Translations under genes and position numbers: made by a program
The notes under the pieces: model-generated
The model's database searches: none
The model's input: the letters and a program-made list of their open reading frames with translations, nothing else
Told to the model about the DNA's origin: nothing
Assembly (NCBI RefSeq): GCF_019056395.1
Contig: NZ_CP077639.1
Span: forward strand, 398,501-462,500
Direction: 5' to 3'
DNA length: 64,000 bases
Source of the DNA: Terribacillus sp. DMT04
GTDB taxonomy: Bacteria; Bacillota; Bacilli; Bacillales; Amphibacillaceae
Shown here: positions 42,841-45,061 of the stretch, in pieces
Numbering within the stretch: position 1 is the first letter of the stretch
Layout: each line of letters begins with the position of its first letter

Positions 42841-42873
42841 AAAGTCATGATCAGCTGATCATGGCTTTTTTTG
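42841..42873 (+). terminator. Terminator of marR-MFS operon
   Basis: AGTCATGATCAG/CTGATCATGGCT stem with T-run; arms almost continuous around a minimal loop. Confidence 0.88.
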
Positions 42874-42935
42874 ATGGTGCAAACCTTAAATGCTATAATC
42901 GCAAATCCGATTATGATACCCTATTGTTAATCGCA
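42871..42935 (+). promoter_or_regulatory. Promoter and candidate operator of the cobalamin-STAS operon
   Basis: TTGATG (42871-42876), 17-base spacer, TATAAT (42894-42899) with TG extension make a strong SigA promoter. ATAATCG (42895-42901)/CGATTAT (42908-42914) is a perfect 7-6-7 inverted repeat at the -10 and start site. TAATCGCA recurs at 42896 and 42928, 32 bases apart. Confidence 0.6.
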
Positions 42936-42960: not shown

Positions 42961-43266
42961 ATGTATATCGTACATTCGATTTTTAATGTTCCTGCTGAAA
43001 AATCAGAGGAAGTAATTGCCATTTATCAAAACAGGTCGAAACTAGTGGATCAAGCTCCAGGCTTCCAGCAGTTCCGACTGCTTCACAATAAGAAGAAGCC
43101 AGGAGAATTGACTGTTGAAATTACTTGGGAAGACAAGCAGAGCTATATAGATTGGGTAAGCGGGGATGATTTCAAGCGTATCCATGACTTGGAGAAAAAT
43201 TACCCAGATCAAGAACTGGCGTCTATCCGGCCAACGGTGAAAATGTTTGAGGTGGTGGCGCAGTGA
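42961..43266 (+). CDS. IsdG/HmoA-like antibiotic biosynthesis monooxygenase domain protein
   Basis: A 101-residue ferredoxin-like-fold protein of the ABM superfamily. Asn9, Trp65 and His75 occur with the spacing of the haem-degrading IsdG triad (Asn7, Trp67, His77), including the ten-residue Trp-His step, so haem binding or cleavage is plausible. The rest is FQQFRLLHNKKKPGELTVEITWED, a typical strand pair. The RBS is an unusual run of six G, eight bases or fewer before the ATG. It is the first gene of an operon: its stop overlaps the next GTG by four bases. Other ABM activities remain possible. Confidence 0.75.
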   Translation: MYIVHSIFNVPAEKSEEVIAIYQNRSKLVDQAPGFQQFRLLHNKKKPGELTVEITWEDKQSYIDWVSGDDFKRIHDLEKNYPDQELASIRPTVKMFEVVAQ

Positions 43267-43640
43267 GCACAACAATCCGAGCAGATGAATTGCTTGATAA
43301 TATTGTGGAAGACATCTTTGACGCGTATCCATCTTTATATGAACGTTACGGGGAGAACGGAAAGATACGAACGCGCGAGGATAATCAGCATCACTTAAAT
43401 TATTTGCAGACTGCTTATGAGGCGGATGATATACAGCTGTTCAATGATTATACGCTGTGGCTGTATGAATTGCTTTCTGCTCGCGGTATGAATGAAAAAA
43501 TAATCATCGACAATTATGTGCGGCTGATACCACTACTGGAAGTATATGTGGATAAGAAAAAGTATGCCTTTTTTAAAGCGTGTTTGGAAGAAGGAATTCA
43601 AGTATTGCATGCAGAAAAAAACAAGGACGAAGACAACTGA
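43263..43640 (+). CDS. Helical protein of unknown function in cobalamin-STAS operon
   Basis: A 125-residue, mostly helical, soluble acidic protein. It starts at a GTG overlapping the previous stop (GTGA). Notable stretches are ELLDNIVEDIFDAYPSLYERYG, here split after ELLDNIVED, and LFNDYTLWLYELLSARGM followed by EKIIIDNYVRLIPLLEVYV. The general pattern of amphipathic helices recalls the N-terminal sensor or dimerisation domains of RsbR/RsbU-type stress regulators, but I cannot assign a family. It sits between an IsdG/HmoA-like gene and the B12 photoreceptor-like gene, 12 bases before the latter, so a role in the same signalling unit is likely. Confidence 0.7.
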   Translation: MSTTIRADELLDNIVEDIFDAYPSLYERYGENGKIRTREDNQHHLNYLQTAYEADDIQLFNDYTLWLYELLSARGMNEKIIIDNYVRLIPLLEVYVDKKKYAFFKACLEEGIQVLHAEKNKDEDN

Positions 43641-43652
43641 GGGTGATACGTG

Positions 43653-44300
43653 ATGACAGAAGCTTGGCGGCATTTTGCAGCAGCGTTGCTTGCTGGTGAT
43701 GAGCGGCAGGCATACAGCCTTTTAGCAAATGATCCAAGACCGAGTATCCGTGTGTACAAAGAGATCATAACACCGGCAATGTATGATATAGGAGAGAAGT
43801 GGCTGCGTAATGAAATTACAGTAGCGGACGAACACTTGGCGACAAGTGTATGTGACTTTGCACTGGCGCAGTACGTATTTCCGTTTAAACGGAGAAACAA
43901 GCATTCAAAAGATAAAGTGATGTTTCTTTGTTTGGAAGAAGAGCAGCATGTGATTGGTTCTAAGATGGTGGCGGCCTTATTTGAAGAACAGCATTGGCAG
44001 GTCCGGCATCTTGGTCCTAATCTGCCTCTGGCACATGCTTTAAGCAGTGCAGAACAGTGGCGGCCAGAAGTAATTGGTTTATCTGCTGCGATTCCTTATC
44101 GTATACCTGCTTTGAAGGAATACATTGCCGCCTTCGAGCAATTACCTTGGCAGCCAAGGGTAATGGTTGGAGGGCGAGTGGTTTCCATGCATGATATCAG
44201 GCCTTATTGCGGCAGGCAGACACAAGTTATTTACGATTTAGAACAAGTGGCAGCATGGCTGAATGAATTGGCGGAGGAAGAGGCAGATGGTGTCTGGTAA
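43653..44300 (+). CDS. Stand-alone cobalamin-binding protein with CarH-type light-sensor signature
   Basis: A 215-residue protein made only of a helical cap (about residues 1-78) and a B12-binding Rossmann domain (about 85-210). The cap contains W50 followed after nine residues by E60-H61, the W-x9-EH signature of adenosylcobalamin photoreceptors such as CarH/LitR. The Rossmann part has E97-x-H99-x-x-G102, supplying the lower axial histidine, then HLGPNLPL and GLSAAIPYR. The MerR DNA-binding domain of CarH is absent. The next gene, a STAS protein, starts inside this one, suggesting the signal goes to a protein partner. GTG one codon earlier is too close to TGAGGGTG. Confidence 0.85.
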   Translation: MTEAWRHFAAALLAGDERQAYSLLANDPRPSIRVYKEIITPAMYDIGEKWLRNEITVADEHLATSVCDFALAQYVFPFKRRNKHSKDKVMFLCLEEEQHVIGSKMVAALFEEQHWQVRHLGPNLPLAHALSSAEQWRPEVIGLSAAIPYRIPALKEYIAAFEQLPWQPRVMVGGRVVSMHDIRPYCGRQTQVIYDLEQVAAWLNELAEEEADGVW

Positions 44301-45045
44301 GTTTCTGCCGTTGCCTTATTTCTTCATTAGCTCCGATTGGAAGATACTTGATTATTCACGTGCTGCCAGCAGTATTTTCTTAATTGGAGATGATTTTAAC
44401 AGTTTGGTTGATGAGGGGAACCGGCAGAAAGTCAGCCAGTATATACAGCCGCATTTGTCTGAGATCCACTTCGAACTGAATATGAAAACAAAGCATGATC
44501 CGTTGGCTGTGTTCAAAATATCTGTTCAATGGGAAGCGGACAGGGCACATATCATTTGCGTAGAGAAAACGAAAGAGGTTGACCAGCTTGCCAGTCAATT
44601 AATGAAACTTCGCTCTAGGCTCTCAGAGACAGACTTTGAATTGCTGGAAAAGAAAGAAGAGCTGGAGGATGCGATCAATCGTATCTATAAACTTAGCGGT
44701 CCGTTCATTCCGCTTTATAAAGAATCTGGTCTGATACCTTTATTTGGTGATCTGCAAGCCGATAAGCTGGAGGTAATGGAAGCGAACATTTTAGCGAAGA
44801 TAGACGAAGGAGAATATGAGCAAGTCTTTTTCGACTTTCATGGCGTCGGTGAGATAACGATAGCTGGAAAAGAGAAGCTCGGACAGCTATTTGAATCGAT
44901 TCAGCTGATGGGAACAAAGACAATAATTGTTGGACTTTCTCCATCACAGGTTCAAGGCTTTGGATCAAAAGGTACGTTGCAAGCTGACACAATGGGCAGT
45001 CTGCAACAGGCAATCTCCATGTATGTAAAAAAAGCAGAACTATGA
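44287..45045 (+). CDS. PAS-like/coiled-coil/STAS protein, RsbR-related
   Basis: A 252-residue protein. A PAS-like N terminus (about 1-95; YFFISSDWKILDYSRAAS) is followed by a coiled coil (about 100-140) and a C-terminal STAS domain (about 140-245) that resembles the stressosome protein RsbR in SGPFIPLY, LFGDLQ, FDFHGVGEI and LMGTKTIIVGL. From memory, RsbRA is phosphorylated by RsbT on two threonines. The equivalent of the second appears kept (EITIAGK), while the first is replaced (LQADK). The gene overlaps the cobalamin-binding protein gene by 14 bases. I infer it relays the B12/light signal, possibly into the general stress pathway. Confidence 0.8.
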   Translation: MVSGKFLPLPYFFISSDWKILDYSRAASSIFLIGDDFNSLVDEGNRQKVSQYIQPHLSEIHFELNMKTKHDPLAVFKISVQWEADRAHIICVEKTKEVDQLASQLMKLRSRLSETDFELLEKKEELEDAINRIYKLSGPFIPLYKESGLIPLFGDLQADKLEVMEANILAKIDEGEYEQVFFDFHGVGEITIAGKEKLGQLFESIQLMGTKTIIVGLSPSQVQGFGSKGTLQADTMGSLQQAISMYVKKAEL

Positions 45046-45061
45046 GCAGTTCTGCTTTTTT
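45030..45061. terminator. Bidirectional terminator
   Basis: AAAAGCAGAACT (45030-45041)/AGTTCTGCTTTT (45048-45059); the 5' arm codes the last residues of the STAS protein. T-rich on both strands. Confidence 0.88.

Follow-up and report, generated by a model that had tools for sequence, protein, structure and literature searches.

On balance, a compact operon of Terribacillus sp. DMT04 (Bacillota; Bacilli; Bacillales; Amphibacillaceae) probably encodes a photocobilin-like photoreceptor whose cobalamin- and bilin-binding halves are made as separate chains, together with its own heme-processing protein and a partner that would carry the signal by contact through a PAS-like domain and a STAS domain to the stressosome and SigB. 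The operon lies in a stretch of 64,000 nucleotides (hereafter, the window; RefSeq assembly GCF_019056395.1, contig NZ_CP077639.1, positions 398,501 to 462,500 of the forward strand), and its coordinates are given in window positions. Homology, key residues, gene coupling, co-occurrence across genomes, the swapping of output domains and the presence of a SigB operon in the genome carry this reading; binding of the bilin and of adenosylcobalamin (AdoCbl), the response to light, docking of the two halves, and the SigB output and its direction are proposed. Four open reading frames (ORFs), packed as one unit at 42961–45045 in the order ABM, HEL, B12 protein and partner, make up the operon:

42961–43266, + strand: ABM (gene 1), IsdG/HmoA-like dimeric barrel protein (PF03992, profile matches)
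43263–43640, + strand: HEL (gene 2, about 125 amino acids), stand-alone photoglobin-like protein, proposed bilin-binding globin (family profile, D40/W66 register)
43653–44300, + strand: B12 protein (gene 3), stand-alone CarH-type cobalamin-binding domain with a four-helix cap and a Rossmann domain (PF02607, PF02310, motif)
44287–45045, + strand: partner (gene 4), PAS-like N-terminal domain, coiled coil and RsbR/YtvA-like STAS domain (profile, Pfam)

Genes 1 and 2 overlap by 4 bases, gene 2 starting at GTG 43263. A gap of 12 bases separates gene 2 from gene 3, which runs from ATG 43653 (alternative start, GTG 43650) to 44300 and whose residues are numbered from that ATG. The first 14 bases of gene 4, read from ATG 44287, lie within gene 3, and the longest ORF for gene 4 opens at 44263. 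A preliminary description, drawn up from the window alone, had proposed a four-gene operon with overlapping or nearly overlapping genes, and the ORF calls agree with it in the place of all four genes and exactly in the 14-base overlap.

Cobalamin-binding and globin halves of the putative receptor

The window HEL protein had no match in Pfam, and the matches of 24 single HEL relatives were weak and scattered (MetOD1 in four, Phycobilisome in three and DUF1642 in two, with the lowest E value, 5.3e-5, for DUF1642); the identity of HEL therefore rests on profile evidence. A profile of 24 HEL sequences (like the ABM alignment of 21 sequences, without L035; L numbers denote loci of relatives) was searched against all solved chains and matched the globin domain of the photocobilins 8j2x and 8j2w (4e-4), phycocyanin alpha (5.4e-4) and the photocobilin AbPcob (8j2y; 0.0096), the next unrelated chain appearing only at 0.56. 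When nine relatives with HEL fused to a B12 domain were included, the values were 5.4e-8 for SasPcob, 1.4e-5 for AbPcob and 2.2e-4 for phycocyanin, and further matches up to an E value of 10 were mostly phycobiliproteins. As a control, a profile of the N-terminal domain of the partner, searched likewise, gave one match, at 0.89. An RsbR-type globin was set aside as the identity of HEL, there being no RsbR N-terminal domain chain among the HEL profile matches.

The residues that hold the bilin in SasPcob have counterparts in HEL. Asp270 of SasPcob is the key contact of the bilin rings, and Trp296 contacts ring D and the corrin (PMC10979010). The numbering in that paper equals the 8j2x chain number plus 5, as fixed by W61, E71, H72 and H108, and with this offset Asp270 and Trp296 align with D40 and W66 of HEL. 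Both are among the only five columns (D40, L48, F60, Y63 and W66) that are invariant in 36 sequences, 27 of HEL and 9 of fused relatives. AbPcob has His for that Asp, and its named pocket residues are Trp289, Leu294, Arg297, Val299 and Val303 (PMC10979010); in a check of the register, the Asp-to-His change and the five pocket residues all fell into place with one offset. The predicted HEL model is of the globin type (predicted local distance difference test [pLDDT] score, 66.9), and globins or phycobiliproteins account for 49 of the 50 among the Foldseek matches listed.

A phylum-wide HEL profile search covered 398 genomes, gave a match in 15 and returned 12 loci, 11 of them newly fetched. In nine of these 11, HEL and the B12 domain lie in one ORF encoding a protein of about 360 residues, with HEL at about residues 13–128 and the B12 domain at about 142–320. 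Because such fused relatives exist, docking of HEL on the B12 protein is proposed. In the window, a bilin-type globin homologous to SasPcob, with the equivalents of Asp270 and Trp296 kept, is thus present, and it is encoded in a gene of its own, not in one chain with the B12 domain. We propose that HEL is a photocobilin-like globin that would bind a bilin.

Gene 3 scored over the Pfam cut-offs for both PF02310 (50.5 bits) and PF02607 (44.5 bits), and no MerR model in Pfam matched it at E ≤ 0.1. Its motif reads W50-x9-E60-H61 and E97-x-H99-x-x-G102, and none of these six residues varies among the 32 aligned relatives, with identities down to 31%; the aligned set was without L035 (a near-copy of L036), the decayed L047 and L048, L097 and L099, and the weaker relatives L049–L056. 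The view of the preliminary description, that the third product consists of a helical cap and a B12-binding domain with W-x9-EH and without a DNA-binding domain, is therefore upheld. Light-responsive domains are marked by W-x9-EH combined with ExH (PMC10979010, PMC11796333). The best matches among solved structures were the cobalamin domains of CtMerR and SasPcob (about 1e-16), before TtCarH, and the score against the NCBIfam CarH equivalog was 59 bits (cut-off, 400).

Directly after the capping Trp, the window protein has Leu and all 32 relatives have Glu, Gln or Leu, never His, so that no bis-His light state as in TtCarH is to be expected; the position is Gln in SasPcob and Arg in CtMerR (PMC11796333). 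From the SignatureFinder set, GxxW, EH and GxxxP are present in gene 3, and the GxxH position has Glu for Gly. Only 10 of the 32 relatives have this Gly, and mining by the GxxH signature would thus miss most such B12 proteins. Taken together, these features support gene 3 as a stand-alone CarH-type domain with putative AdoCbl binding. The genome encodes a cobalamin adenosyltransferase and has one further B12-domain match, which is weak and below the cut-off.

Damaged copies were also seen among the relatives. The B12 gene is split over two ORFs in L097 (5519–6045) and L099 (5344–6014), either really or by sequencing error. In the decayed cassettes, the start of ABM runs into the end of the B12 gene (L047, 6076–6513), the B12 cap runs into HEL (L054, 5824–6312), or fragments of the B12 and HEL genes lie around an intact kinase-like gene (L048).

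Coupling to ABM, partner proteins and genomic context

The preliminary description had taken the helical protein as unknown and the IsdG/HmoA-like protein as a further extra part. This was incomplete: profile matches, residue register and co-occurrence indicate that the two appear to form the second half of the sensor, namely a bilin-type globin with a heme-processing partner. Gene 1 has the ABM fold (PF03992, 53.4 bits), scores far below the NCBIfam cut-offs for IsdG/HmoA-type enzymes, and matches by profile solved structures that include IsdG, IsdI, HmoB and a mycobilin-producing oxygenase. The catalytic triad of IsdG is Asn7-Trp67-His77 (PMC6018153). At these positions ABM has S6, W65 and H75, invariant in 21 of 21 sequences, that is, Ser-Trp-His in place of the IsdG-type Asn-Trp-His.

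Among 397 sampled genomes of the order, the ABM subfamily (E ≤ 1e-25) was found in 149, all with HEL; 12 have HEL without the subfamily at this threshold (L161, 3920–4324, and 11 further genomes), and 236 have neither. By ORF calling, the gene immediately before HEL is ABM in 68 of 73 loci, and the two overlap by 4 bases in 57; 64 of the 73 loci are distinct, and 60 of these have the upstream ABM. A six-frame search added ABM in L038 and in two further HEL loci (L037 and L158), which brings the count to 63 of 66 distinct loci, and found ABM to be absent in L042 and L161 and broken in L099. Where the B12 gene lies elsewhere, which is the case in most of L151–L160, the pair stays joined. One of the nine fused loci (L177, 1104–2535) has ABM just upstream of the fused HEL-B12 gene. 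A classical heme oxygenase was set aside as the bilin source, PF01126 being found in 0 of 25 cassette genomes by a search that was positive in 3 of 14 control genomes. Because ABM is coupled to HEL and the cassette genomes gave no PF01126 match, ABM is the best candidate for a protein that may supply or handle the HEL ligand, as a putative heme-processing partner.

Of the same 397 genomes, 161 encode HEL and 173 encode the stand-alone B12 protein (E ≤ 1e-38); the two occur together in 149, HEL only in 12, the B12 protein only in 24 and neither in 212, where the B12 threshold was chosen after viewing the list, as parting stand-alone proteins from weaker matches, and the genomes are related and hence not independent. 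In a search for the B12 protein across 159 genomes of the family, a partner gene adjoins all 15 matches that scored 150 bits or more, among them that in the window; 14 of these partners are STAS proteins and one is kinase-like. The preliminary description had made co-occurrence with STAS genes in other genomes a test of its proposal, which withstood it. The distribution within the genus is patchy (B12 protein in 5 of 10 members in the family search), and the nearest named loci are those of Terribacillus halophilus (B12 protein, 93%) and T. saccharophilus.

The match of gene 4 to the Pfam STAS model is below the cut-off (19.3 vs 22.6 bits); a STAS profile of 30 relatives matched the solved structures of YtvA (1.4e-20) and RsbR (about 1e-16), and an RsbR-like STAS domain is therefore present by profile. 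The N-terminal domain spans about residues 14–106 of the 260-amino-acid reading; in the window protein it had no Pfam match, and its profile had no match among solved structures other than the one noted above as a control. Of the earlier likening to RsbR as a PAS/coiled-coil/STAS protein, the STAS part stands; the PAS label is weak, and the phospho-threonines are not kept, His and Gly being found instead. We take the phospho-threonines of B. subtilis RsbR to be T171 and T205. At the first of these positions, the 30 STAS relatives have Thr (18), Ser (4), His (5), Asn (2) or Gln (1), and at the second, 6 of the 30 have Thr or Ser.

The N-terminal domain is the constant part of the partner. The same domain occurs in kinase-like and short partners (profile comparison probability, 99.9%) and, with less certainty, in partners of the GGDEF type (82%; matches of 1.6e-5 in L163 and 1.6e-6 in L166). 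The output behind this common domain is thus exchanged: the window protein has STAS, and relatives have a His-less kinase or GGDEF in its place. The kinase-like partners keep the ATPase domain, and in 6 of 6 the phospho-accepting His is replaced (Thr, Glu, Glu, Asn, Asn and Asn). These proteins of 367–370 amino acids (L045, L048, L103, L104, L128 and L139), which presumably resemble a sporulation kinase, are possible pseudokinases behind the B12 sensor. Pfam matches bear out a GGDEF partner in L049, L050, L163 and L166; in L163 (3032–5282) and L166 (1928–4296) it accompanies B12, ABM and HEL genes and is possibly wired to cyclic-di-GMP. The short partners (180–220 amino acids; L105–L108) consist of the N-terminal domain and a helical tail that, on visual inspection, is similar to the second dimerisation helix in kinase-like partners.

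A canonical rsbR-S-T-U-V-W-sigB cluster lies in the same genome (contig C1, 549184–553471), with RsbW and SigB called over the cut-off and RsbR, S, T, U and V named by similarity and order; the genome has 17 STAS matches. Of 42 genomes with the cassette or with a B12 gene and its partner, among them kinase and GGDEF types, 41 had SigB over the cut-off, the single exception being a kinase-type genome (G219). As a discriminator of the STAS type, the presence of SigB accordingly fails. Two further features flank the coding region:

42871–42899, + strand: sigma-A-type promoter-like site upstream of the operon, TTGATG-N17-TATAAT with TG before the second hexamer (10/12 matches)
45028–45061, + strand: terminator hairpin over the stop codon of the partner gene, followed by T's (-17.3 kcal/mol, z -4.5)

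A promoter scan of the region found 1 site against a mean of 4.8 in shuffled sequences, and the promoter-like site is therefore no evidence of function. None of 200 shuffles gave a hairpin as good as that at 45028–45061, which was not listed by a consensus scan.

Proposed mechanism and alternative explanations

In the mechanism that we propose, the B12 protein would bind AdoCbl, with W50 over the adenosyl group, E60-H61 at a dimer interface and H99 as the lower ligand, and AdoCbl would, by homology, keep the protein in its dark form. HEL would bind a linear tetrapyrrole via D40 and W66, ABM would supply or process this heme-derived bilin, and the bilin-loaded HEL would dock at the corrin edge of the B12 domain, as does the SasPcob globin. 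Light absorbed by the bilin or by the cobalamin would break the Co–C bond. The changed complex would then contact the PAS-like N-terminal domain of the partner, and the change would pass via the coiled coil to the STAS domain, which would feed the RsbR-RsbS-RsbT stressosome so that RsbT release and SigB activity are altered. A contact-based output is proposed because of the STAS similarity and because photocobilins act on other proteins by contact.

Several observations weigh against this mechanism. The top listed Foldseek matches of HEL are heme globins (neuroglobin, E 0.055), no listed match reaches 0.001, and confidence in the model is middling. Heme cleavage by ABM is doubtful because Ser replaces the catalytic Asn in 21 of 21 sequences, and IsdG-type enzymes yield staphylobilin or mycobilin, not biliverdin (PMC6018153). 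HEL is missing from 24 of the 173 genomes with the B12 protein, and ABM-HEL stands apart from the B12 gene in some genomes. On the output side, the window STAS domain has H193 and G232 (260-amino-acid numbering) at the positions of the RsbR phospho-threonines, the predicted model of the STAS protein is weak (pLDDT, 43), PAS_9 is found by Pfam in 4 of 28 relatives with a best E value of 4.2e-5, and SigB does not single out the STAS type, since 41 of 42 genomes have it.

The same two-pigment sensor may act through a STAS protein that works outside the stressosome, for instance in sporulation or another STAS network, or as a scaffold. The loss of the phospho-sites in the window and the replacement of STAS in relatives by a His-less kinase-like protein (6 of 6 read) or GGDEF would fit such a role, which we consider somewhat unlikely: the best matches of the STAS profile, YtvA and RsbR, are both stressosome or stressosome-linked proteins, and Thr or Ser is kept at the first phospho-position in 22 of 30 relatives. 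A different doubt concerns the bilin. The B12 protein alone could be the photoreceptor, with HEL, like the globin of AbPcob, having lost bilin binding and only shaping the complex. Stand-alone B12 proteins do occur without HEL in the 24 genomes mentioned, the loci with a short partner (L105–L108) or a GGDEF partner (L049–L053) beside the B12 gene contain neither ABM nor HEL, and AbPcob binds biliverdin poorly yet responds to light (PMC10979010). However, the Asp lost in AbPcob is kept in 36 of 36 HEL and fused sequences, and 149 of the 161 genomes with HEL also have the heme-degradation-type protein linked to it, so that this explanation appears unlikely.

It is also conceivable that the operon senses cofactor status, ABM and HEL reading heme or its breakdown, the B12 protein reading AdoCbl level or redox, and the partner giving a stress or cell-fate output. 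The barrel of ABM is of the heme type and has a changed active site, the fold matches of HEL include heme globins, and a PpaA/AerR-type regulator is described as redox-responsive (PMC10734443), all of which would suit a sensor of this kind; we nevertheless regard it as quite improbable, given that the motif set of light domains, W-x9-EH with ExH, is invariant in 32 of 32 B12 relatives. Beyond the split photocobilin-like receptor itself, which remains our preferred reading, we put forward, as less likely than not, a broader scheme: a modular two-pigment receptor in separate chains, whose bilin (perhaps not biliverdin) would be made by a dedicated IsdG-type protein and whose B12/globin pair would connect by contact, via the shared PAS-like domain, to interchangeable outputs (STAS, His-less kinase or GGDEF), which would bring the general stress response under green-to-red light control.

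Comparison with known systems

To our knowledge, light input to the SigB-type response in Bacillus relatives has so far been tied to YtvA-like LOV proteins. If the proposed mechanism is true, it adds a B12-plus-bilin light input to this response, shows how exchanging the domain behind a docking domain connects a single sensor pair to different outputs, and gives bilins made by IsdG-type proteins a possible role, at a time when the fate of bacterial bilins is called largely unknown (PMC6018153). The genes are widespread, with HEL in 161 of the 397 genomes sampled from the order, and separate chains are easily mixed and matched, which would suit optogenetic tools. An operon of ABM, HEL, B12 and STAS genes was not found in literature titles and the beginnings of abstracts on cobalamin-STAS light sensing, the stressosome, photocobilins and photoglobins; the work of Schneider et al. 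(2022) may contain it. That work reportedly predicted a photoglobin family, in which a non-heme globin is associated with B12-binding light-sensor and signalling domains.

RsbR and YtvA resemble the partner in their C-terminal STAS domain, and YtvA is itself a light input. In the operon, by contrast, the sensor is in other chains, the phospho-threonine positions are not kept, and the N-terminal domain of the partner is not an RsbR globin and is not called LOV by Pfam. IsdG/HmoA enzymes share with ABM the fold and the Trp and His of the triad; ABM differs by an invariant Ser for the catalytic Asn. CarH and LitR have the cobalamin domain and the motif in common with the B12 protein, which is without MerR, and where TtCarH has His after the capping Trp, the window protein has Leu. 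AerR/PpaA, acting with CrtJ/PpsR, is likewise a stand-alone B12 domain that contacts a partner protein; CrtJ, however, is a transcription factor of purple bacteria, and the abstract mentions no globin or ABM partner (PMC9144470).

The closest likenesses are to systems that join a globin to a B12 domain. In the clusters of BBAG-2 globins (Rockwell et al. 2023, PMC10151467), a separate globin and a B12-binding protein are encoded together, in some cases with a heme oxygenase. These clusters are of the Myxococcales type, with a canonical heme oxygenase or bilin reductase, whereas the operon described here belongs to Bacillales-type genomes, has ABM instead (PF01126 in 0 of 25) and adds a STAS, kinase-like or GGDEF partner. 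Photocobilins (SasPcob and AbDPcob) have a CarH-like B12 domain and a bilin globin, the W...EH and E/DxH motifs and the Asp and Trp contacts, and act on other proteins by contact; the predicted partners listed for Saccharothrix include STAS and SpoIIE/PP2C proteins (PMC10979010). In the operon, unlike in photocobilins, each of the two domains has its own gene, translation of the globin is coupled to that of an IsdG-type protein, and a separate PAS-like/STAS protein serves as output. Photocobilins were characterised in 2024, clusters of globin and B12 genes were described in 2023 and photoglobins were predicted in 2022; these are already known, and the split operon arrangement is a variant of them.

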